Part shown: piece by piece, positions 29,873 through 40,761 of the stretch
How positions within the stretch are numbered: the stretch's first letter is position 1
Layout: each line of letters starts with the position of its first letter
NCBI GenBank assembly: GCA_007693505.1
Contig: REDL01000037.1
Coordinates: 1-46,456, forward strand
Direction: 5' to 3'
Length of the DNA: 46,456 bases
From: Desulfovibrionales bacterium
GTDB taxonomy: Bacteria > Desulfobacterota > Desulfovibrionia > Desulfovibrionales > Desulfonatronaceae
The notes under the pieces: generated by a model
Database searches by the model: none
Told to the model about the DNA's origin: nothing
Seen by the model: the letters and a program-made list of their open reading frames with translations, nothing else
Made by a program: the position numbers and the translations under genes

Positions 29873-30814
29873 GTGTCGAAAATCCGGAAACTGCGTTTTT
29901 TTCTGGTCTGCGCTGACCCAGGGCGCGTGACGTTTTTTCAAAGCCTTTGGCCTATGGACGAAGTGGAGTGGACGGTTTTCCAGCGGGGACCCATGGCCTT
30001 GGAGCAGGTGTTCAACGCCCCGCCGGACCTGTTGCTCGTTGATGACGATCTACCGCAGCTCTCCGGCGCGACCCTGGTGAACATGGTCAAAAGCGAGAAC
30101 GTCTATCGCCAGCTGCCTGTGGTACTCTGTCTTTCCGCGGAATCACCTCTGGAAGCCGTAGATTTTCATAGCGTGGAGATGGACGATTTCTTGGTGTTTC
30201 CGGTCTCGGCCCTGGAGGCCAGGTCCCGAGTCAGCTTGACCTTGCATCGCGCATCACGGGAACTGGACGCCAATCCGTTGACCAAACTGCCGGGCAACAC
30301 CTCCATTATTCAGCGCATCCAGGATCTTATCGACAGGCGTGACCCCTTTGCTTTGGCCTATGTAGACCTGGACCACTTCAAATCATTCAACGACAAATAC
30401 GGGTTCTCGCGGGGGGATGAGGTCCTGATGATGACCGCCCGGGTGATCGTCAACACCATCCGGTCATTTGCCGGAAAGCTTTCCTTCGTGGGGCATGTGG
30501 GTGGGGACGATTTTGTCTTTATTTTAACCCCGGACGTGGTGGAATTTGCTTGCCAACGTATCGTTGAAAGCTTCGACAGCATCGTCCCCCATTTTTATGA
30601 TCAGGATGACCAGGAATGCGGATATATTCTCTCCACGGACCGCAAGGGAGCCCTGCAACGGTTTGCGATGATGTCCGTTTCCATCGCCGTGGTCTTCAAT
30701 GTCGACGGTCGCTTGAAGCACTTTGGCGAAGCATCACAGATCGCCATGAATCTGAAAAAGAAGGCCAAGTCCATACCTGGCAGTTCCTATGTCCTGGACC
30801 GCCGACAGGAATGA
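29873..30814 (+). CDS. Pseudo-receiver and GGDEF-like (GGDDF) protein
   Basis: A 313-residue protein with an N-terminal receiver-like domain and a GGDEF domain. The receiver has an acidic LLLVDDD (Asp57-59) but the usual conserved Lys is Phe109 (VFPVSALEA), so it may not be switched by phosphorylation. The GGDEF domain has a normal substrate region (VDLDHFKSFNDKYGF, SRGDEVL) but the active-site motif is GGDDF (210-214) in place of GGDEF. No RxxD inhibitory site precedes it. It may be a weak or non-catalytic c-di-GMP protein. The start is GTG 29873, just after the HDOD gene; the last 26 bases overlap the recombinase gene. Confidence 0.85.
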   Translation: MSKIRKLRFFLVCADPGRVTFFQSLWPMDEVEWTVFQRGPMALEQVFNAPPDLLLVDDDLPQLSGATLVNMVKSENVYRQLPVVLCLSAESPLEAVDFHSVEMDDFLVFPVSALEARSRVSLTLHRASRELDANPLTKLPGNTSIIQRIQDLIDRRDPFALAYVDLDHFKSFNDKYGFSRGDEVLMMTARVIVNTIRSFAGKLSFVGHVGGDDFVFILTPDVVEFACQRIVESFDSIVPHFYDQDDQECGYILSTDRKGALQRFAMMSVSIAVVFNVDGRLKHFGEASQIAMNLKKKAKSIPGSSYVLDRRQE

Positions 30815-31751
30815 GCTTTCCCCTTATGGCAGGATGTTCATGGCCCATCTTGGGGTGGAGAAGGGCTACGCCGAAGCCACTCTGGGTGCCTATGGTCTGG
30901 ACCTGTTGCAATTCGAGCGATTTGTTGTGGACAAGGGCTTGGATCCACAAGCTCCAGAATCCATCACACGGGAGACTGTTCGGAGCTACTTGGCCGAACT
31001 GCATCGCCAGGGCGTCAAGCGCAGTTCCGTGGCCCGCAAACTGGCTGCGCTGCGCTCCTACTTTCGATTTCTGATTCGTCGCGATATCCTGCGCACCAGC
31101 CCGTGTGCCGTTATTGGCAACCCCCGTCAGGATGTCCGGCATCCAGCGACCCTGAACGTGGATCAGGCCCTCAGCCTCGTGGACGCCTCGGCGGAGCTGG
31201 ATCCGCGAACCCTGCGGGATATGGCCCTTGTGGAGTTGCTGTATGGCTCAGGGGTGCGGATTAGCGAGGCCCTGGGGCTGGACCTGTTCGACCTGGATCT
31301 GGATCAGGGCATGGTCCGCGTTCTGGGCAAGGGCAGCAAGGAACGCCTCGCCCCGATGACCGAAGCCGGGGTACATCGGCTGCGTGCCTACCTTGCCCAC
31401 CGCAATGCCTTCAGCCCTCGACCCGAGGAGCGAGCGGTTTTTTTGGGAATGCGCGGGGGCCGTTTGAACCGGCGGGAGGCCACCAGAATCGTGGACAAGG
31501 CTGCGGAAAAGGCCGGCCTCGCGCAACGGATCAGTCCGCATGTACTTCGACACAGTTTTGCATCACATCTGTTGGAATCCGGGGTGGATCTGCGTAGCGT
31601 CCAGGAACTGCTCGGCCATGCCCGGCTCAGCACCACTCAGCGTTACACCCACCTTGACCTGGCTCGGGTTGTTCAGGTCTACGATCAGTCCCATCCCCTG
31701 GCCGTGGAGGGAGAAGCCAGGAAGCGCGAGCCGGAAGAGGGCGGACAATAA
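30789..31751 (+). CDS. xerC: Tyrosine recombinase XerC/XerD
   Basis: A 320-residue tyrosine recombinase that resolves chromosome dimers at dif. The N-terminal SAM-like core-binding domain covers residues about 10-100. The catalytic residues are visible: Arg157 (GVRISE), the GKGSKER Lys hairpin near 180-186, His251 and Arg254 (SPHVLRHSFASH), His277 (LGHARLSTTQRYTH) and the nucleophile Tyr286. This is the XerC/D pattern; which of the two cannot be told from sequence alone. ATG 30789 lies inside the preceding gene. A later Met at residue 16 or 18 is possible. Confidence 0.93.
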   Translation: MSWTADRNELSPYGRMFMAHLGVEKGYAEATLGAYGLDLLQFERFVVDKGLDPQAPESITRETVRSYLAELHRQGVKRSSVARKLAALRSYFRFLIRRDILRTSPCAVIGNPRQDVRHPATLNVDQALSLVDASAELDPRTLRDMALVELLYGSGVRISEALGLDLFDLDLDQGMVRVLGKGSKERLAPMTEAGVHRLRAYLAHRNAFSPRPEERAVFLGMRGGRLNRREATRIVDKAAEKAGLAQRISPHVLRHSFASHLLESGVDLRSVQELLGHARLSTTQRYTHLDLARVVQVYDQSHPLAVEGEARKREPEEGGQ

Positions 31752-31946
31752 GACGGAACCGCATCCGGCATGACGGATGTTCTGTGGAGTTTGCCCGGAT
31801 TTTTTGAGCAGTTCCGATGCGGTGGCTGGCCGTCGTTGCAGGCCGGTCGGGAATCACACCCAGTGAATATTGCCCGTTCCATCTGTCCTGAGCCACCTGG
31901 TTTTCCCGGAAAGGCTCGTTCACTGCGCGAGGTTGGAGCGGTTCGG

Positions 31947-34760
31947 CTAGCGACCCGGACGAGAAGTGGCCATGATGTAAACTTCGTGGGGGTCAAGGAT
32001 CAGGACCACACTTCCGTCGCCCATAATCGTCGCCCCAGAAATGCCCTCAATGTCCCCCAGATAGCTCCCCAAGGGCTTGATGACCACCTCCTGGCGCTCC
32101 TGGAGGCGATCCACCACAAGTCCAAGGCGGCGATCATTGTCCGTGATCACCACCACCGGCAGAATATCCCGGTTCTGGGTATTCCGGGGAAGACCGAGCA
32201 GGTCCGTCAATTCAACGATTCCCAAGACCTCATCTCGGAGGGTGACTGCCTTGCGTCCGCTGACGTCGGTCAGGATCGACGTGTCGATCTTGGTTGTTTC
32301 GGAGACCGCATCCAGGGGAATGGCATAGGTGGCCCCAGCCACGGTAACCATCAAGGCATCGATGATGGCCAGTGTCAGAGGTAAAACCAGGGTCATTTTC
32401 GACCCCTTGCCAAGTTCCGAGGTCACATTGACCGTGCCCTTGAGATTCTTGATGTTGGTCCGGACAACGTCCATGCCCACGCCACGCCCGGAAATATCCG
32501 TGATCGTATCGGCCGAGGAAAAGCCCGGAGCGAAAATCAGTTCCACGGCCTCTCTGTCGTCCAGCCTGGCGGCATCTTCTTCGCTCATCAGCCCTTTTTT
32601 CACGGCCACTTTGCGCATTTTTTCCGGATCAATGCCCCGACCGTCATCCTCCACCTCAATGGCCACGGAATTGCCCTTGTGATAGGCCCGTAGCCAGACC
32701 CGACCAGTGGCCGGTTTGTTGGCGGCGAGGCGTTCCTCCCGGCCCTCCAGGCCATGATCCATGGAGTTGCGAACAAGGTGGACCAGGGGGTCGCCAATGA
32801 CCTCTACAATGCTCTTGTCCAGTTCGGTTTCCTCGCCTTCGGTGATCAATTCCACATCCTTGCCGCTCTTGCGGCTCAGGTCTCGAACCAGTCGGGGGAA
32901 TCGAGAGAATACCGCGCTGACGGCGACCATGCGGACCTGCATGATCGTGTCCTGGAGATCGTCGGAAATCCTGGCCATGGCATACGTGGATTCCGTGAGT
33001 TGCTGGGCAACCTGTTCCACCTGCTCGGGATTGTCCTCCAGAGACTTGGAAAGCATGGCAAAGCGGTTGCGATTGATGATCAGCTCGCCGATCAGATTCA
33101 TCAGGTGATCCAATCGTTCATGATCCACCCTGATGGTCGTCGAGGTCTTGGGTTTAGACGTTCCGGCAGCATCTGGGCGGCCGGAGGGTTGGTCCAATTT
33201 TTCGGCGGATTGGGAGGTGTCCTGTTGTAACTCGGGATTCGGAGTGGCTGGGGGTTGCGGTTGTGCACCCTGTTCGGGTTGCGTATCAGCCTTGGTTGCA
33301 GTGGATGCCGCAGGTGTGGTGGCAACTGGCTTGATGTTTGTCGCCGTGCCGGCTGGTTGCTCTTTTGGGGTCGGTTTGGGGGGCTCGACCATGCCATCGG
33401 AACCCTGCGCAGGGGCCGCAGCGGAGCACAGCGCATACCGGCCCAGGATCGCCGTAACCATGTCGGCGATGATTTCCTTTTCCTGCCCAAGCAGGTCCAG
33501 GAAGAGCTCAAACCCCATATCCGCCTCGCGGGCCTGGTCAACCAGCTTGGCCGTTCGCTCGGCATAGACGTTCAGATCGTCAAAGCCCATGTACCCGGCA
33601 GAGTTCTGCAGGGTGAGCAGTGAGCGATACAATCCGTCGACCGCCGCCTTCTGGGCGGGATCTTCGGTGAGTTGGCGTAGCGCCAGGTCCATGTTTTCCA
33701 TCTGCTGGCGGGATGTGAAGCGGAAGACGGCGAGGTCTTCCGGGTCAAGGCCGCCTGGGAGCGGTTCCTGGGCCGTGGGGGGGCAATGCGTTGCATCGCC
33801 TGCTTCCTGGGGCTCCACGTCCGGGGTGGCCGGATGGGGCTCCGCTGGGACTGATCCCAGGCGGGATTCATGCAGCCTGGTGATCATCGGCTGGACATCC
33901 AGCCTCGAGACACTCAGGCTTGGGGCATCCACCCTGGACACGAGCCCGTCGATCTGGTCCGTTGCGGCCAACAGGAGGTCGATCAGCTCCCGTTCCAGGG
34001 CAATCTCTCCCTTGCGAACCTGGCCCAACAGGCTCTCGGCCTCATGGGACAGGGCATTGAGTTCCAAAAAACCCAGCAGGCCGCTATTGCCCTTGAGGTT
34101 GTGCATGTACCGAAAAATATCGTTGATCAGCTCGTCCTTGCCCTCCGGGGTCCGTTCCAGTTCCAACAGCGATCGGTTCAAATTGGCGACAATCTCCTGT
34201 GCCTCTTCCAAAAAATCCGCCAGGTGCTCGGCGCTGACCGCATTCAAGGCATAACTTCCTGAAGGAGGAGCCGGGGTCACGGTCTCCGAGGAAGCCTCGG
34301 CCGCTACTGGAGGGGGTGTTTCCCCCTTGACGCTCGTTCCGGTGGAGGGAGCCGGGGTGCCGCCACTGTGTTCCATGACCTCGGTAATCCGGTCGATGAT
34401 TTCACGGGTCTCCACATCGCCTTCCGTCCCACTGACTTCCAGGTTCTCAATCATCGTGCGCAGGGCGTCGGTAGTTGCCAGGACAATGTCCATGATGTCC
34501 GGGGTGACCTGGAATTTGCCCTTGCGCAATTCATCCAGAATGTTCTCCGCTTTATGGGCCAGATTATTGATTTGCGGCAGACCGAGAAATCCCGACGCTC
34601 CTTTCAGAGAGTGCATGGGCCGAAAAATGGCATCCAGCAGGCCCACATCCTTGGGCTGCTTCTCCAGGAGCAACAGATTCGGCTCGATGGTTTCCAGATG
34701 CTCTCTGGCTTCGATGATGAAATCAGTGAATAATTCCGGATCCGAGAATTCTTGATTCAT
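31947..34760 (-). CDS. cheA: Chemotaxis histidine kinase CheA with three Hpt-like domains
   Basis: A 937-residue CheA. Hpt 1 holds FRPMHSLKGASGFLG (phosphoacceptor His50) and Hpt 2 FRYMHNLKGNSGLLG (His220). A third Hpt-like region at about 345-445 has YRSLLTLQNSAGYMG, with Leu382 at the phosphoacceptor position, so it cannot be phosphorylated there. A Pro/Thr-rich linker leads to the dimerisation helix (about 543-625), the HATPase (LVHLVRNSMDHGLEG near 660, DDGRGIDP near 707, GRGVGMDVV near 759) and the C-terminal CheW-like domain (from about 800). ATG 34760 has gaggtg 5 bases upstream. It is the last gene of the cluster and receives signals through CheW. Confidence 0.95.
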   Translation of the reverse strand: MNQEFSDPELFTDFIIEAREHLETIEPNLLLLEKQPKDVGLLDAIFRPMHSLKGASGFLGLPQINNLAHKAENILDELRKGKFQVTPDIMDIVLATTDALRTMIENLEVSGTEGDVETREIIDRITEVMEHSGGTPAPSTGTSVKGETPPPVAAEASSETVTPAPPSGSYALNAVSAEHLADFLEEAQEIVANLNRSLLELERTPEGKDELINDIFRYMHNLKGNSGLLGFLELNALSHEAESLLGQVRKGEIALERELIDLLLAATDQIDGLVSRVDAPSLSVSRLDVQPMITRLHESRLGSVPAEPHPATPDVEPQEAGDATHCPPTAQEPLPGGLDPEDLAVFRFTSRQQMENMDLALRQLTEDPAQKAAVDGLYRSLLTLQNSAGYMGFDDLNVYAERTAKLVDQAREADMGFELFLDLLGQEKEIIADMVTAILGRYALCSAAAPAQGSDGMVEPPKPTPKEQPAGTATNIKPVATTPAASTATKADTQPEQGAQPQPPATPNPELQQDTSQSAEKLDQPSGRPDAAGTSKPKTSTTIRVDHERLDHLMNLIGELIINRNRFAMLSKSLEDNPEQVEQVAQQLTESTYAMARISDDLQDTIMQVRMVAVSAVFSRFPRLVRDLSRKSGKDVELITEGEETELDKSIVEVIGDPLVHLVRNSMDHGLEGREERLAANKPATGRVWLRAYHKGNSVAIEVEDDGRGIDPEKMRKVAVKKGLMSEEDAARLDDREAVELIFAPGFSSADTITDISGRGVGMDVVRTNIKNLKGTVNVTSELGKGSKMTLVLPLTLAIIDALMVTVAGATYAIPLDAVSETTKIDTSILTDVSGRKAVTLRDEVLGIVELTDLLGLPRNTQNRDILPVVVITDNDRRLGLVVDRLQERQEVVIKPLGSYLGDIEGISGATIMGDGSVVLILDPHEVYIMATSRPGR

Positions 34761-34800
34761 GGATGCACCTCGTAGCAGGCAGGAAGAAAGATTTTGGAAG

Positions 34801-35178
34801 CTACCCCAGCAGCATTTTCACGTTGCGAAGCAGCTTATCTGGCTGGGCCGGCTTGACCATGTACAGATTGGCTCCAAGGCCAATACCCTTCTGGATGTCT
34901 TTCTCCTGGCCTTCGGTGGAGAGGACGATGATCGGCGTATCACGAAAAATTTCCTGCTCGCGAACGTTCTGGATGAAGGTAAAGCCGTCCATCCGCGGCA
35001 TGTTGATGTCGCTGATAATCACGTCCACCTTCCCAGCGGTAAAAAGCTTTTCCAGGCCGTCCATGCCGTCCTCAGCCATGGTCACCCGAAATCCCTCCCG
35101 CTTCATGATGAAGGCGACAAGATTGCGAACTGTTTTGGAGTCGTCGACAATGAGAATATGCTTCACAAAAAACCTCAT
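34801..35178 (-). CDS. cheY: Chemotaxis response regulator CheY
   Basis: A 125-residue single-domain receiver. Seen: the acidic pair DD (12-13), phosphoacceptor Asp57 (SDINMPRMDG), Ser87/Thr88 (LSTEG) and Lys109 (VKPAQP). It should carry the signal from the CheA encoded next to it to the flagellar motor. ATG 35178 overlaps the cheW stop (ATGA), so they are coupled; an in-frame GTG at 35163 is a possible alternative start. It lies 40 bases before cheA. Confidence 0.93.
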   Translation of the reverse strand: MRFFVKHILIVDDSKTVRNLVAFIMKREGFRVTMAEDGMDGLEKLFTAGKVDVIISDINMPRMDGFTFIQNVREQEIFRDTPIIVLSTEGQEKDIQKGIGLGANLYMVKPAQPDKLLRNVKMLLG

Positions 35179-35897
35179 GCTATGACCAGGGATTGAACCA
35201 GATGGTCGAGGGAAAGAATGGTAATCAGTTTTTGATTTTCAGCGCGAATCAGCCCGCTGATCATTTCACTTTGAACACCCAGAAGGGATTCCACGGCCCA
35301 GTCGATCCGGTCTTGCTTGACGCGGTGCATGGTGGAAACGGTCTGGATCTGCAAGCCGACCTGCAGTCCTTCGTGGCGACAGACAATGATGAACCGATCC
35401 TCACCAGGAGGGAGACGAAGCAGCATGCGCAGAGAAACCAACGGCGTCACCCGGCCGCGCAGGTTGACCACGCCGGACAGAAAGGCCGGAGCGGAAGGCA
35501 GCTTGGTCGGCTCCACAGCCCGGATGACCTCCTGAACCACGTCGATAGGCAGAGCGTAGTCCTGGTTTGCCAAGTGAAATCCGATCAGTTGCAATTCAAG
35601 TTGTTCACGCAACGATTTCTGGGGGGGTGACGCATCCGGTGAAGACGACAGGCTTGGCGCTGCCCGCTTGGGAACAGATTCGGAAGCGGCTGCATCGGTA
35701 GTTTGCAGGCCGGCCATGACCTGTTCCGGGGACACGGTTTGGATGCGTGCGGCGTGCGCATCAGCCTTGTCGCCCACCCCAAGGTACTTCTTCAAGAACG
35801 CCTCTTCCGCGCTGGTGAGATTGTCTGGCGAGGTGCCTGGCCCGGTATCCTCGGACAAGAGCGGCTGATCCTGAAAATATTGTTCAAGCGTTTTCAT
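35175..35897 (-). CDS. cheW: Chemotaxis coupling protein CheW with N-terminal extension
   Basis: A 240-residue CheW. The CheW domain proper starts near residue 101 (ELQLIGFHLANQDYALPIDV), followed by GVVNLRGRVTPLVSLR. The first 100 residues are an extra, mostly disordered segment with a helix EEAFLKKYLG (31-40), which is unusual because CheW is normally about 160 residues. It couples receptors to CheA. The start at ATG 35897 is 14 bases inside the end of the ParA gene. A much longer in-frame upstream extension to 36122 runs antisense in character over the ParA gene and is rejected. Confidence 0.92.
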   Translation of the reverse strand: MKTLEQYFQDQPLLSEDTGPGTSPDNLTSAEEAFLKKYLGVGDKADAHAARIQTVSPEQVMAGLQTTDAAASESVPKRAAPSLSSSPDASPPQKSLREQLELQLIGFHLANQDYALPIDVVQEVIRAVEPTKLPSAPAFLSGVVNLRGRVTPLVSLRMLLRLPPGEDRFIIVCRHEGLQVGLQIQTVSTMHRVKQDRIDWAVESLLGVQSEMISGLIRAENQKLITILSLDHLVQSLVIA

Positions 35898-36669
35898 TGG
35901 CTGTGATCTCCTTGGCCAGGTGCCGGTAGGCTTGTGCTCCCCTGGAGGACGGGGCGACTTCCAGGATGGTTTTTCCCATGCCGCTGGCTTCCCGAAATTT
36001 TGTGTCCATGGGGATGATGGACTCAAAGACCTTGTTGGCGGCTTTTTGACGTAACAGGCGCAGCACCCGCTGACACGCCCCGGCGCGGCGATCAAACATG
36101 GTGGCCAGGATGCGGAAGTCAATAGGTTGGGGCAGGGCCTTGTTCAGGGTTTTCATGGTCGCGAAGATCAGTCGCACGCCGTGCAAGGCCAGGAAGTCCG
36201 TCTGCATGGGAATGATCACCAGGTTGGCCGCCACCAAGGCGTTGACCAGCAAGATGCCGACATGGGGCGGACAATCCAAAATCACGTAATCATAGCGGTC
36301 GTGCAGGTGTCTCCTGCATTGCTTCAGGATGGCGCCAATGCCAGCCCTGTCCCGCAGGTCCATCTCCAACTCGGAGAGGCGGATATGGCTGGGGGCGACA
36401 TCGAATTTTGCATTTGTCGTCGACGCGATGAGGTTGTCCAGGATGGCGGGGCGCTTTCCGGCGTCCTCCTCCAGAAACAGTTCGTACAGGGTGGTGCGTT
36501 GTTCCTCCGGATAGAAACCGAGGTGGATGCTGGCGCAGGCGTGGGGGTCCAGGTCCATGACCAGAACCCGGTGTCCCATCTCGCCCAGGGCGGCGCCAAG
36601 GCTCAGGGCGGTCGTGGTCTTGCCGACACCGCCTTTCTGGTTGGCTACGGCCAGAACCTGCAGGGTCAT
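35884..36669 (-). CDS. ParA/MinD-type ATPase of the chemotaxis cluster
   Basis: A 261-residue ATPase of the ParA family. The deviant Walker A NQKGGVGKTTT (residues 10-20) and the downstream LDCPPHVG and VIIPMQT regions are typical. In chemotaxis clusters such ParA proteins (ParC-like) localise chemoreceptor arrays at the pole and ensure their inheritance. ATG 36669 overlaps the PilZ stop (ATGA); an upstream in-frame extension to 36726 lies inside the PilZ gene. Its end overlaps cheW by 14 bases, so the three are coupled. The role in array positioning is inferred from context. Confidence 0.9.
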   Translation of the reverse strand: MTLQVLAVANQKGGVGKTTTALSLGAALGEMGHRVLVMDLDPHACASIHLGFYPEEQRTTLYELFLEEDAGKRPAILDNLIASTTNAKFDVAPSHIRLSELEMDLRDRAGIGAILKQCRRHLHDRYDYVILDCPPHVGILLVNALVAANLVIIPMQTDFLALHGVRLIFATMKTLNKALPQPIDFRILATMFDRRAGACQRVLRLLRQKAANKVFESIIPMDTKFREASGMGKTILEVAPSSRGAQAYRHLAKEITANENA

Positions 36670-37082
36670 GCGCTGTCTCGCTGTTTGCGCAACTCCTTGA
36701 GAATCAACATCCTCAGGGCTTGCCAATCGTCCTCATAGATATCCAGAAACTTTACCCCCACTGCATAGTCACGCATCGCAACGATTTCCCGGGTGTGGAC
36801 AACCTCGCCAACCGCTGTCAGGGATTGGTCGACGTCGCTTTCGAATACCTTGAAAAAACCTGGGTGGTGCTTGTTCAAACTGGGGATGAAGATGGTCACC
36901 TGCAATTTGTCGCCAACATGAAAACGCTTGGCACAGTGGACAAGTAGTCCACCCTCGCTGATGTCCACGGAGTGAACTTCCGATGCAGGTTGGCGTTGCA
37001 AGGGAAAAACAAAAGGTCTGATTGTGACCTCAAAAGGTTTGGTCAGGCGGACATGGGCTCGTTTTTCCTCGTCATGTTCCAT
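36666..37082 (-). CDS. PilZ-domain c-di-GMP-binding protein
   Basis: A 138-residue stand-alone PilZ protein. The c-di-GMP motifs are intact: RxxxR at Arg8-Arg12 (KRAHVR) and DxSxxG at Asp40-Gly45 (DISEGG). It probably binds c-di-GMP and affects motility, linking the second-messenger state to the chemotaxis apparatus. It lies upstream of parA with an ATGA overlap and about 150 bases after cheR, where an internal promoter may lie. A GGDEF-like protein and an HDOD protein are encoded nearby in the window. Confidence 0.9.
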   Translation of the reverse strand: MEHDEEKRAHVRLTKPFEVTIRPFVFPLQRQPASEVHSVDISEGGLLVHCAKRFHVGDKLQVTIFIPSLNKHHPGFFKVFESDVDQSLTAVGEVVHTREIVAMRDYAVGVKFLDIYEDDWQALRMLILKELRKQRDSA

Positions 37083-37232
37083 GCAAGACTCCGGTTTACA
37101 ATGGTACGTTCAGGGCTTCTCGTGCTGAAGCTCCTCGCGTCAACGAGAAGACAATGGACAGTCAGGAAGTCGGACCAGGCATAGTATGCATTGCTGCTTT
37201 CCTTCACACCCCAGCCATGCCGTCCAAGGTAT

Positions 37233-38087
37233 TCAGAGGACTTTGGAATAGACGATGCTACCGGGGTGGTGTTGCGGCTTCAGTGTCCGAGAAACATGGT
37301 GCAGTGACTCGGAGTGCCCGATGAACAAGACCCCATCGGGCACCAAATTGTCGTAGAAAGCGCTAATTACCCGTTTTTTCATCGCGTCGTCAAAGTAAAT
37401 GATTACGTTACGGCAAAATATGATATCCGAGCGGGGGATCAATTTGATCTGGACGCGGTCATTCAGGTTGAGTTGCCCGAACGAGACCAGGCTCTTCAGG
37501 TCCTGGCGAATCCTGAACTGTCCAGCCTCCTCAATGAAATATTTCCCGACAATCTCTTTTGGGGTCGTCCGCAAGGCGTATTCGGAGTAAACACCGCGGC
37601 GCGCGGCATGTAAAACAGCTTCGGAAAGATCGTTGGCCGTGATCCGGACATCCCAGTTTATGAGCTCCGACCGAAGTACTTCATGCAAAATAATTGCCAG
37701 CGTGTACGGCTCCTCACCCGTGGAGCAACCCGCGGACCAGAGGTGCAGTGAGCGCTTTCCGGATTTCCTGAGCCGGTCCAAAAAACGGGGCAGCACGATG
37801 TTTTGAAAAACGGCCAACTGTGGCGGATTGCGATAAAAACTGGTTTCATTGGTGGTAATGACCTCGAACAGTCGGGGGAGTTCCTGACGCCGTCCGGTGT
37901 CATACTTAAGGTAGTAGATGTATTCGCCATAGCTCTTTAAATTCAAAATCTTGATGCGATTTGAAAGCCTGTTTTCCAGCAGATACTTCCGCCTGTCCGA
38001 AATGGAGATTCCGCTTTGAGCATATATGAAATCCCGCAATTGCTGGAATTCGGCATCCTTCATGCCCAATGGAACGGCGCCGCCCAT
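37233..38087 (-). CDS. cheR: Chemotaxis methyltransferase CheR
   Basis: A 284-residue S-adenosylmethionine-dependent methyltransferase that methylates glutamates of chemoreceptors. The N-terminal helical domain has DFIYAQSGISISDRRKYLLE, and the catalytic domain has ETSFYRNPPQL, LHLWSAGCSTGEEPYTLA (SAM site) and FCRNVIIYFD. The start ATG overlaps the HEAT-repeat gene stop (TAATG). No CheB, CheD or receptor gene is in the window, so methylation in this cluster must be reversed elsewhere. It is the second gene of the run, then a gap of 150 bases leads to PilZ. Confidence 0.95.
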   Translation of the reverse strand: MGGAVPLGMKDAEFQQLRDFIYAQSGISISDRRKYLLENRLSNRIKILNLKSYGEYIYYLKYDTGRRQELPRLFEVITTNETSFYRNPPQLAVFQNIVLPRFLDRLRKSGKRSLHLWSAGCSTGEEPYTLAIILHEVLRSELINWDVRITANDLSEAVLHAARRGVYSEYALRTTPKEIVGKYFIEEAGQFRIRQDLKSLVSFGQLNLNDRVQIKLIPRSDIIFCRNVIIYFDDAMKKRVISAFYDNLVPDGVLFIGHSESLHHVSRTLKPQHHPGSIVYSKVL

Positions 38088-40042
38088 TATCGATGCTGCT
38101 CCTGATCCTGCTCCTGAAGGTGAGCGATGGCAATCTCCACTGTGTTGATCAGTTCCGGGTCGTCGTTGTTGAGGAGGCCAAGCAGGATCTGGAAGGCCCT
38201 TGGGCCGCCGATCAACCCCAAGGCCTCGACAATCTTCAGGGTAATGAGCGAATTCTCTTCATGTAAGAGCACAGCAATTTTTTCCAGAGACTCGGTTTGC
38301 CGCAGCCGTCCCAGGGCCTCGATGGCCCGGACCCGAACCCAGTCGTCGGTGTCGTTCAGCGCGGATTCAAGAATCGGTGCAACATTGACTAGGCTGCATG
38401 CGCAGTCCCCCAGCAGGGTGACCAGAGTCAATCGCACATCCCTGTCTTCATCCTGAAGGCGCTGAGAGATCATTGCAAAGACATCGCTCGTCAGGCCGCA
38501 AAGATTGATCGCAGCCTCCAGGGCCGCCTTGCGGACAGCGGTGGAATCATCCTCCAGGGCCGTGCGCACCACGTCCAAATGTGTATCGCAACCCAGGCTG
38601 CCCAGCCCAAGGATGGCCATGGTTCGTTTTTCAGGAGCCGGTGAGGCGAACATCTGGTGAAATTTTTCCACCAGCGAGACGTCTCCCAAAGCAATGCAGG
38701 CAGTCAGGGCGGCCTCCCGGACATCAGGATAGGGGTGGTCCAGAAAGGTAAACAACTGCTTGGCCAAATCGGATTTGTCTCGGTTTGGTGATGGTTGTCG
38801 GCTAAGAAAATGCATAGCCTGCTTGAGCACATGTCCATCGTCATGCCGGTCAAGCAGGTCCATAAAAAAAGAGTTGGCTTCGTCTCCGGCCACCGCGTTC
38901 AGGGCATCCACCAACTGGCGCTGCACGTCCCGATCATGACGCCAGAACGCCTCCATCAAGATCTGGCTGGAATCTGGTCCTGGCAATCGTCGCAGCGCGT
39001 TGACGGTCACGTCCAGGGCCTCGGTGTTCGTCTCTTGGAGGGTCTGGCGAAACACTTCCGTTGCTCCGATTTCCGCCAGGGCGATGGCCATGGAACTCAT
39101 GCGGTCCTGGTGTGCCTCCGAGTTTGGGTCGAGTTCAGAGGCCATGGCAATGATCGGCCCGGCCGCCTCGGTCACACGCAAGGATGCAAGTCCGGAGATG
39201 GCTGCATCTTGAATCGTCTCGTCTTCGTCCTCCAGTGCGGAAAGCAGGTATTTTCTGAAATGGGCTTGTTCCAAGGCCGGCAGCAGGTTCAAGACCCTGC
39301 CACCCATGATCTGAACAACGGCTTTGACGATTTTATTGCGCAAGGCCCATGGTGCTACATCAAGCCGTTCCAGCATCAGGGGAATGGACTTCAGGTTGCC
39401 CATCTCGCCGAGGGCATCAACGATCATTGAGGCCACCAAGTCTGTCGCCTTGGGCATTGTCTGGATCAGGGCGTTGATGGAAGATTCATCACGGATTTTC
39501 AACAGAGCCTCAATGACCGAAAACTGAACCCACTCCTCGTCCTCCAAGGCCTGGTTCAAGCACTGAACTGCCTCTGGAAATCCCAAATTGCCGAGACTGA
39601 CCGCGGCCTGATACCGAACATTGACATCAGCGTCATGAAGCAACGCCTGGCATAAATGCGGGACGGCGAGAATGCTTCGGGTTGATCCAAGGATGTCCGT
39701 GGCGAAAATTCGGATGTCCCCGTCGGCATCATCCAGCAGAGCCAGGATTGTCGATATGTCCTGGTTTCCGATCTCCCGCAGGATGTCCATGGCCAAGTTG
39801 CGGACCTGGGCATTCTCAGTGCGCAACAACGGGCAAAGTCCTTGGACTGCTTCGCTTCCTCCAAGCTGGCGCAACGCCAAATCCGCGGCCTCCTGGACAC
39901 CCAGGTTCGGATTTTCAAGCAGTCGGATCAATTCCAGGACCGCCCCATGGCATCGGGCATCTCCAAGGTCCCGTGCCGCCTCACGCACCAATTCAGGGTC
40001 ATCGACATGGAGCCGTTCTATGATTTGCAGGCAGTCCGCCAT
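38087..40042 (-). CDS. HEAT-repeat protein at the head of the chemotaxis cluster
   Basis: A 651-residue soluble protein built of many HEAT (phycobilisome-lyase-like) repeats of about 30 residues, for example NLAMDILREIGNQDISTILA, RYQAAVSLGNLGFPEAVQ and VRVRAIEALGRLRQTESLEK. HEAT solenoids bind partner proteins; no catalytic motif is visible. The gene overlaps cheR (TAATG), so it is probably co-expressed with it and may scaffold part of the receptor array (inference). ATG 40042 has gaggaa about 6 bases upstream; an in-frame ATG at 40063 is less likely. It is the first gene of the leftward cluster; its upstream region has a palindrome at 40134-40145. Confidence 0.9.
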   Translation of the reverse strand: MADCLQIIERLHVDDPELVREAARDLGDARCHGAVLELIRLLENPNLGVQEAADLALRQLGGSEAVQGLCPLLRTENAQVRNLAMDILREIGNQDISTILALLDDADGDIRIFATDILGSTRSILAVPHLCQALLHDADVNVRYQAAVSLGNLGFPEAVQCLNQALEDEEWVQFSVIEALLKIRDESSINALIQTMPKATDLVASMIVDALGEMGNLKSIPLMLERLDVAPWALRNKIVKAVVQIMGGRVLNLLPALEQAHFRKYLLSALEDEDETIQDAAISGLASLRVTEAAGPIIAMASELDPNSEAHQDRMSSMAIALAEIGATEVFRQTLQETNTEALDVTVNALRRLPGPDSSQILMEAFWRHDRDVQRQLVDALNAVAGDEANSFFMDLLDRHDDGHVLKQAMHFLSRQPSPNRDKSDLAKQLFTFLDHPYPDVREAALTACIALGDVSLVEKFHQMFASPAPEKRTMAILGLGSLGCDTHLDVVRTALEDDSTAVRKAALEAAINLCGLTSDVFAMISQRLQDEDRDVRLTLVTLLGDCACSLVNVAPILESALNDTDDWVRVRAIEALGRLRQTESLEKIAVLLHEENSLITLKIVEALGLIGGPRAFQILLGLLNNDDPELINTVEIAIAHLQEQDQEQHR

Positions 40043-40133
40043 GGTCTTCCTCAGCCTTTGCAATCAATTTCGTTAATGATTGGAAAAATTGGCCTAAGTG
40101 GTACAGATTAAGGCAAGAAAGCATCACCAACCA

Positions 40134-40145
40134 GGCAAATTTGCC
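40134..40145. promoter_or_regulatory. Palindrome, candidate operator of the chemotaxis cluster
   Basis: GGCAAATTTGCC is a perfect 12-bp palindrome about 92 bases upstream of the HEAT-repeat start. Its size and position suit a dimeric regulator. No matching regulator is identified. Confidence 0.3.
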
Positions 40146-40326
40146 CAAATCAATTCGCCCTCAACCCTTAAAGCATCATGCGCGCTTTCTCGTCAAGATG
40201 ATCTCAGACAGGAGCATGTGGAGTTTGTCCTCGTTTCAGATTTCCTTGCCACAGACGTGAGAGGTTCACCCGGTTAAATCCAGCGAAACTGGTACGCGAA
40301 GCGTATTTACCCGAGCAAGAACAAAT

Positions 40327-40367
40327 AAGTGTTTTTCAACAGCCGACCTGGCTGGCGAAAAACACTT
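40327..40367. repeat. Long hairpin 1
   Basis: Arms AAGTGTTTTTC (40327-40337) and GAAAAACACTT (40357-40367) are perfectly complementary. The inner CAGCC/GGCTG pairs again around gacct. The structure is strong, but without a run of T after it as a plain terminator. Confidence 0.7.
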
Positions 40368-40390
40368 CGCGCCAGAAGACGCAGGCAACT

Positions 40391-40426
40391 GTTTCAGCCC
40401 ATTATTGTTTGTCAATGGGCTGAAAC
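40391..40426. repeat. Long hairpin 2
   Basis: Arms GTTTCAGCCCATT (40391-40403) and AATGGGCTGAAAC (40414-40426) pair perfectly around a 10-base loop. It lies 23 bases after hairpin 1. The two could form part of a structured RNA or a terminator for a transcript not defined here. Confidence 0.7.
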
Positions 40427-40684
40427 GTTCTTCCGTCTGCCTTATACGTCCTGGATGGTCCAGCGAAGCGGGTGGGTAAAAAATACATTTCAGATTGCTC
40501 GATGATCAGCGATGTACAGTGACAAACACCTCATGCGTCCATCCCAGACTGGCTGAAAATCCCGCCATATCCACATCCTGAGTTCTGTTAAAACAAGAGC
40601 GGCCCACACTACCTGTTTTCAGCGGTCACCATTCCATGCCCACTTGACAAAAAGCCTCTGCCTCGCATAAATATGCACTCTTTG

Positions 40685-40761
40685 GCGCCCGTAGCTCAGC
40701 TGGATAGAGTACCGGACTACGAATCCGTTGGTCGCACGTTCGAATCGTGCCGGGCGCACCA
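40685..40761 (+). tRNA. tRNA-Arg (anticodon ACG)
   Basis: A 77-base cloverleaf with acceptor arms gcgcccg (40685-40691) and cgggcgc (40751-40757). The anticodon loop ctacgaa gives ACG, which reads CGU/CGC/CGA arginine codons through inosine. The T-arm loop is ttcgaat. The 3' CCA (40759-40761) is encoded. It borders a decayed region, typical of tRNA-linked integration sites. Confidence 0.94.

Follow-up and report, generated by a model that had tools for sequence, protein, structure and literature searches.

A HEAT-repeat protein encoded beside cheR in the chemotaxis cluster of Desulfovibrionales is a candidate partner of the CheR methyltransferase

What does a HEAT-repeat solenoid do at the head of a chemotaxis gene cluster? 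The question is raised by the window analysed here, a stretch of 46,456 nucleotides from a Desulfovibrionales bacterium (contig REDL01000037.1 of assembly GCA_007693505.1), in which the initial annotation had described seven leftward genes, most with overlapping ends, as a single module. ORF reading and Pfam scans recovered all seven where they had been placed, on the minus strand from 40042 to 31947, in the order HEAT, CheR, PilZ, ParA, CheW, CheY and CheA. The first gene (38087-40042, minus strand, as for every cluster gene below) encodes a 651-residue HEAT-repeat protein (Pfam HEAT_2, E 1.9e-65) and is followed by the receptor methyltransferase CheR (37233-38087; Pfam CheR, E 1e-55, and CheR_N), which matches Salmonella CheR (1af7/1bc5). 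Four of the six junctions overlap: HEAT/CheR by TAATG, PilZ/ParA and CheW/CheY by ATGA, and ParA/CheW by 14 bp. The other two are gaps, of 40 nt between CheY and CheA and of 150 nt between CheR and PilZ; in the latter no hidden element was found, the sequence being single-copy with a fold that is not unusual (z 0.85), and terminator-like sites around it are no more numerous than expected by chance.

Upstream of the HEAT gene, a partly palindromic block on the minus strand (40167-40196), TTGACGAGAAAGCG(C/T)GCATGATGCTTTAAG, is kept in five of six genus sequences; with up to 3 mismatches allowed, the genome has no second copy, and the reversed control gave 0. It reads TTGACG-N17-CTTTAA, and we call it no more than promoter-like because scans for the sigma-28 consensus (the whole window, up to 3 mismatches) and for sigma-70 (31500-40700) gave no match. 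A tRNA-Arg gene lies upstream of this block.

We asked how far the arrangement is conserved. Of the 150 genomes searched in the order, 110 contain a HEAT orthologue (match at 1e-20), among them 8 of 8 from the genus. Longer stretches were read for 56 HEAT-bearing genomes, hand-picked to cover genera, together with nine named loci of Desulfovibrio, Desulfovibrionaceae and Halodesulfovibrio; two loci whose stretch ends inside HEAT (L099, L100) were dropped, leaving 63, among which the two sources may share duplicates. In all 63, cheR comes directly after HEAT and cheA is present, and the counts for the other members are 62 for CheY, 56 for CheW, 55 for CheB, 54 for ParA (51 by ORF and 3 by tblastn) and 24 for PilZ. 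An apparent loss of ParA in three loci (L069, L070, L078) proved to be an artefact of ORF overlap, the gene being found by tblastn. The named Desulfovibrio loci L039 and L041-L046 have the same gene order. The expectation that the combination would recur elsewhere, in Desulfovibrio and in the clusters of close relatives, is thus borne out, and the recurrence of gene order across the order, more than chance would give, supports the reading of the cluster as one conserved, operon-like module. Of the HEAT+CheR+PilZ+ParA neighbourhood for which a search had been suggested, HEAT-cheR recurs in all loci read, ParA in most and PilZ in a minority.

Forty genomes of the order carry no HEAT orthologue. 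These are not counterexamples: 39 of them also have no full-length CheA orthologue, and in the remaining one (G065) the CheA copy lies at a contig end. As a positive control, a clear CheA orthologue was found in 19 of 20 HEAT-bearing genomes, the exception being G102. Since 39 of the 40 HEAT-less genomes are without full-length CheA, HEAT and the cluster CheA come and go together. The cluster is the standard flagellar chemosensory system of Desulfovibrionales.

Part of this system has probably been described before. In Desulfovibrio vulgaris Hildenborough, cheA3 (DVU2072) is reported as the terminal gene of an operon with a parA homologue; cheA3 mutants swim but produce no halo in soft agar and gather in capillaries in lower numbers, and the same paper describes the operon as conserved in Desulfovibrio (PMC3944678). 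DVU2075 is described as a ParA family protein (PMC11784015), and the tag numbers DVU2072 and DVU2075 fit the order CheA-CheY-CheW-ParA seen here. From this gene order by tag number we infer that the cluster is probably orthologous to the published operon. Its CheA has 937 residues against the 1089 implied by 3270 bp in D. vulgaris (PMC3944678). HEAT, PilZ and CheR are not mentioned in the main text of that paper.

What kind of protein is HEAT? AlphaFold2 predicts a continuous, all-helical solenoid (mean pLDDT 93.7, pTM 0.76), and its Foldseek matches are generic HEAT scaffolds, the top ones including SF3B1, CAND1 and karyopherins. Together with the 8 stretches matched by Pfam HEAT_2, these results give the tandem bihelical repeats and solenoid of a HEAT-repeat protein. 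Its first 192 residues (39467-40042) form a conserved core of invariant or nearly invariant alignment columns, among which we defined a six-residue signature conserved across the order: R81, N82, F113, N141, V142 and W171. In the model these lie close to where the second helices of the consecutive repeats 3-6 begin, and so probably form one ridge. The signature was scored at a threshold of at least five of six residues, allowing L for F113, I or L for V142 and F or Y for W171, in 78 loci (76 hand-picked from matches in the phylum and two of the window's own genome), 77 of which gave a core match; both the positions and the threshold were chosen once the alignments had been seen, and gene neighbourhood was not used in choosing the residues. 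At least five signature residues were found in 55 of the 77 loci, all 55 of them che-linked and 48 with cheR in the stretch. The remaining 22 comprise 8 che-linked loci, seven of which read RMYNVW, and 14 without any che gene. The window's HEAT has all six residues and sits in a che cluster, which places it in the che-linked family.

This family extends beyond the order. A search of the phylum with a HEAT profile matched 139 of 395 genomes at 1e-15, some of them within the order itself. Among 29 long-HEAT loci fetched from other families outside the order, cheR adjoins HEAT in 17, in two of which it lies upstream instead (an overlap of the HEAT and cheR ORFs in L202 is the effect of an early start call), and in a further 8 a single HDOD-like gene separates the two. 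The latter arrangement forms a HEAT - HDOD-like gene - CheR cassette (L176, L177, L179, L181-L183, L185, L189), with CheY genes around most copies; by eye, a FliA-like sigma factor gene lies just upstream of it in L182. In the last 4 of the 29 we found neither cheR nor cheA in the stretches read. A second form of the protein is short (207-240 residues): all ten che-linked short HEATs are encoded between cheB and cheR in a chemosensory system other than this one, and over their whole length they align with residues 1-192 of the long HEAT. A further short HEAT, L211, is not part of a che cluster and matches the long form elsewhere than in these residues. In two genomes, G010 (L105) and G092 (L104), a second cluster of the order CheW-CheB-short HEAT-CheR-CheY-CheA occurs alongside the long HEAT; no such cluster was detected in the window's genome. 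HEAT represents a widespread and apparently undescribed family whose gene is almost always beside cheR.

We compared the evolution of the cluster proteins by a partial mirror-tree correlation of pairwise distances, using the 36 loci in which an ORF was found for each of seven proteins, with 1000 random subsamples of 24 loci each. Two pairs stand out: HEAT-CheR, with a partial correlation of 0.64 and reciprocal best partners in 986 and 996 of 1000 subsamples, and ParA-CheW, with 0.59 and reciprocal best in 997 and 979. Adjacency alone does not explain these values, because CheW-CheY (0.02) and CheY-CheA (0.25), whose genes also adjoin, fall below them; HEAT-CheB reaches 0.37. The genomes are related, and the correlated evolution and adjacency of HEAT and CheR could also reflect joint inheritance and do not prove contact. 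Folding HEAT tethered to CheR, with the one stop between them read as Gly, gave no confident interface (pTM 0.53, where HEAT folded by itself reached 0.76; pLDDT at the join was 31-49); with 22 rows in the alignment and no pair error given by the model, this outcome counts weakly against an interface.

Long open frames had suggested that HEAT and CheR might be fused in some relatives. The loci read show two separate genes, often in frame. In one family (f5) the two share a frame with a single stop between them in 21 of 40 loci (including L066, L071, L083, L085, L088 and L090), and this stop is TAG in 19 of the 21 against 3 of the 19 that are out of frame. In parts of the Desulfovibrionaceae, HEAT may be joined to CheR by read-through of the in-frame stop; we put this no higher because TAATG and TGATG junctions cannot be TAG and because the loci are related. 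Separately, the CheR N-terminus carries about 180-230 extra residues in L041-L046, L067, L102 and L103, with no Pfam match in the two scanned.

The second pair bears on the array-positioning role that had been suggested. ParA, a 261-residue ATPase (35884-36669, ATG start; Pfam AAA_31/ParA, E 4e-47), has the Walker A motif KGGVGKT, as do all 52 rows aligned. CheW (35175-35897) matches Pfam in its C-terminal part only and begins with an extension of about 100 residues (35897-35592, minus strand) that comprises the motif EQYFxD...AFLxKYLG and a linker. The motif is present in all 54 ParA-bearing clusters (a regular expression recovers 45, and 9 divergent copies were recognised by eye); of the nine ParA-less clusters, seven have no CheW and two (L088, L097) have a CheW without it. 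Vibrio ParP is described as interacting with ParC through an N-terminal region, which a proline-rich linker joins to a CheW-like domain (PMC5706961). The layout here is alike: the ParA-like ATPase is encoded next to a protein whose N-terminal region and linker precede a CheW-like C-terminal domain; the likeness is one of layout, the motif having been defined from these loci alone. The coinheritance of extension and ParA supports the suggested role, and the best reading of ParA and the extended CheW is a putative ParC/ParP-like positioning pair.

In the usual view, adaptation through receptor methylation is the work of CheR and CheB, alone or with CheD. CheB and receptor genes had been noted as absent from the cluster, and from the cluster they are; CheB nevertheless belongs to the system. 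In most relatives it is encoded just upstream of HEAT; the three of these proteins that were scanned combine a receiver with a methylesterase domain. In this genus the gene is not found at that position, and a CheB encoded on another contig of the own genome is, within that genome, the best match to the CheBs of every one of the 50 long-HEAT clusters compared, at 46-72% identity. We therefore reject a loss of CheB from the system in favour of relocation within the genome. In seven of eight genus genomes the relocated gene is directly downstream of a REC-GAF-HD-GYP gene (L213:4783-7413 = G000:C73; L223-L228); the eighth genome, 84% complete, gave no match. The domains were scanned in the own copy of the REC-GAF-HD-GYP gene, which retains HDIGK and GYP and is likely a c-di-GMP phosphodiesterase. 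Two receptors (L140 and L141; G000:C71 and C109) have a long tail that ends in DDEFEKF, a sequence resembling a CheR/CheB-binding pentapeptide.

At the output end, CheY (34801-35178; Pfam Response_reg, E 1.3e-28) is a single-domain response regulator. CheA (31947-34760) had been read as a triple-Hpt kinase; only two of the three domains are of the active type. Pfam finds two Hpt stretches followed by H-kinase_dim, HATPase_c and CheW domains, and the phosphorylatable histidine is conserved as H50 in 62 of 64 rows and as H220 in 63 of 64, the rest being gap or X. The third domain (about residues 338-440) is Hpt-like by hhalign (probability 96.7 and 97.6 against the other two Hpts, 1.1 against a control domain) and has a histidine at the aligned position in 0 of 64 rows; judged by these alignments, it is a conserved pseudo-Hpt. 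Neither a receiver (Pfam Response_reg) nor a P2 domain was found in CheA. Having no receiver, it differs from Tfp/ACF-type multi-Hpt CheAs, a C-terminal receiver being reported for over 90% of multi-Hpt CheAs (PMC10782961). One locus (L081:7224-13616) has a CheA-like open frame of 2130 residues, against the usual 850-1100.

The single-domain PilZ protein (36666-37082; Pfam PilZ, E 3e-11) has both c-di-GMP motifs, RxxxR and DxSxxG, and is predicted to bind the nucleotide. Over 25 rows, RxxxR is found in 22, the other three reflecting a later start, and D/NxSxxG in 23. The c-di-GMP input previously attributed to the module is thus backed by intact motifs, but 39 of the 63 orthologous clusters have no PilZ; because it is the least conserved member, such input is optional to the system. 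Pointing towards the 3' end of cheA on the plus strand (29873-31751) are a REC-GGDEF gene, whose motif reads GGDDF, and a XerC/D-type integrase gene; the former is a possible local source of c-di-GMP.

Which role, then, best accounts for HEAT? We consider it about evenly balanced that HEAT is a dedicated partner of CheR, a scaffold or a regulator. We offer this as the best explanation of the observed gene order, orthology, signature, coinheritance and correlated evolution, from which we infer binding to CheR and an effect on methylation. CheR-TPR enzymes such as WspC and FrzF, in which TPR domains are fused to CheR, likewise couple a helical solenoid to the methyltransferase; here the solenoid is a separate HEAT protein and not a fused TPR. 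The main rival is an output role through CheY, in which CheY-P would dock on the solenoid and HEAT would act as a sink or as a relay to the motor. HEAT and HEAT_PBS proteins are indeed tied to chemosensory systems elsewhere: Cpc7 of Myxococcus xanthus interacts with CheY7 (PMC11514114), and deletion of OE2401F of Halobacterium abolishes motor switching (PMC2666748). Compared by description, their reported partners are CheY7, or CheD and OE2402F (DUF439), and not CheR. The four cheR-less loci outside the order speak for CheY and against CheR, as they belong to one family, have a signature-bearing HEAT and carry a CheY gene after it. Within the order, however, at least one gene separates HEAT from CheY in every CheY-bearing locus, cheR being always adjacent, and the HEAT-CheY partial correlation is 0.22 against 0.64 for HEAT-CheR. 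On balance we regard the CheY role as unlikely.

HEAT could also serve the array at large, as a general scaffold that connects ParA, CheW and CheA and assists in array positioning; its adjacency to cheR would then be incidental. The shared operon and the scaffold-like nature of solenoids (the SF3B1, CAND1 and karyopherin matches) would allow this. Yet HEAT and CheR stay where ParA and CheW have been lost from the cluster (L062, L068, L075, L076, L077, L086, L101), and the partial correlations of HEAT with ParA (0.14) and CheA (-0.05) are low, which makes this improbable. Least probable, in our estimate, is an ordinary chemotaxis operon in which HEAT only stabilises or chaperones CheR and has no part in signalling. 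Genes that overlap or nearly touch and tightly correlated evolution are what such a helper would show; strictly conserved residues, shared by long and short forms in different chemosensory systems, suggest a specific contact, even if a chaperone would need one too.

Two functional pairs can be envisaged in the cluster. In one, the solenoid and CheR would act together in adaptation: the N-terminal ridge of HEAT (residues 1-192, with the signature) would bind CheR or a CheR-receptor complex, the remaining solenoid would gather CheB or array proteins, and HEAT would thereby dose or localise methylation, akin to the fused TPR of CheR-TPR enzymes. In the other, ParA and the N-terminally extended CheW would place the array. 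A broader version, held more tentatively and rather doubtful, is that HEAT is a core adaptation component across Desulfobacterota, with a CheR-docking ridge (RN...F...NV...W), short (~210 residues) and long (~640 residues) forms, and a gene that travels with cheR among systems of differing architecture.

The operon as such was probably already known; what appears new is that its HEAT protein belongs to a family associated with cheR throughout a phylum, which we did not find in the open-licence literature searched, a set outside which most subscription papers fall. A third protein, kept next to cheR in many systems within a single phylum, would be a regulator so far missing from the account of adaptation. 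Its role is addressable in a sulfate reducer amenable to genetics, for which a cheA3 mutant with a phenotype is already available. A further prediction is that sulfate reducers have a ParC/ParP-like positioning pair. Together, these results suggest that the HEAT-cheR association is an overlooked part of bacterial sensory adaptation.
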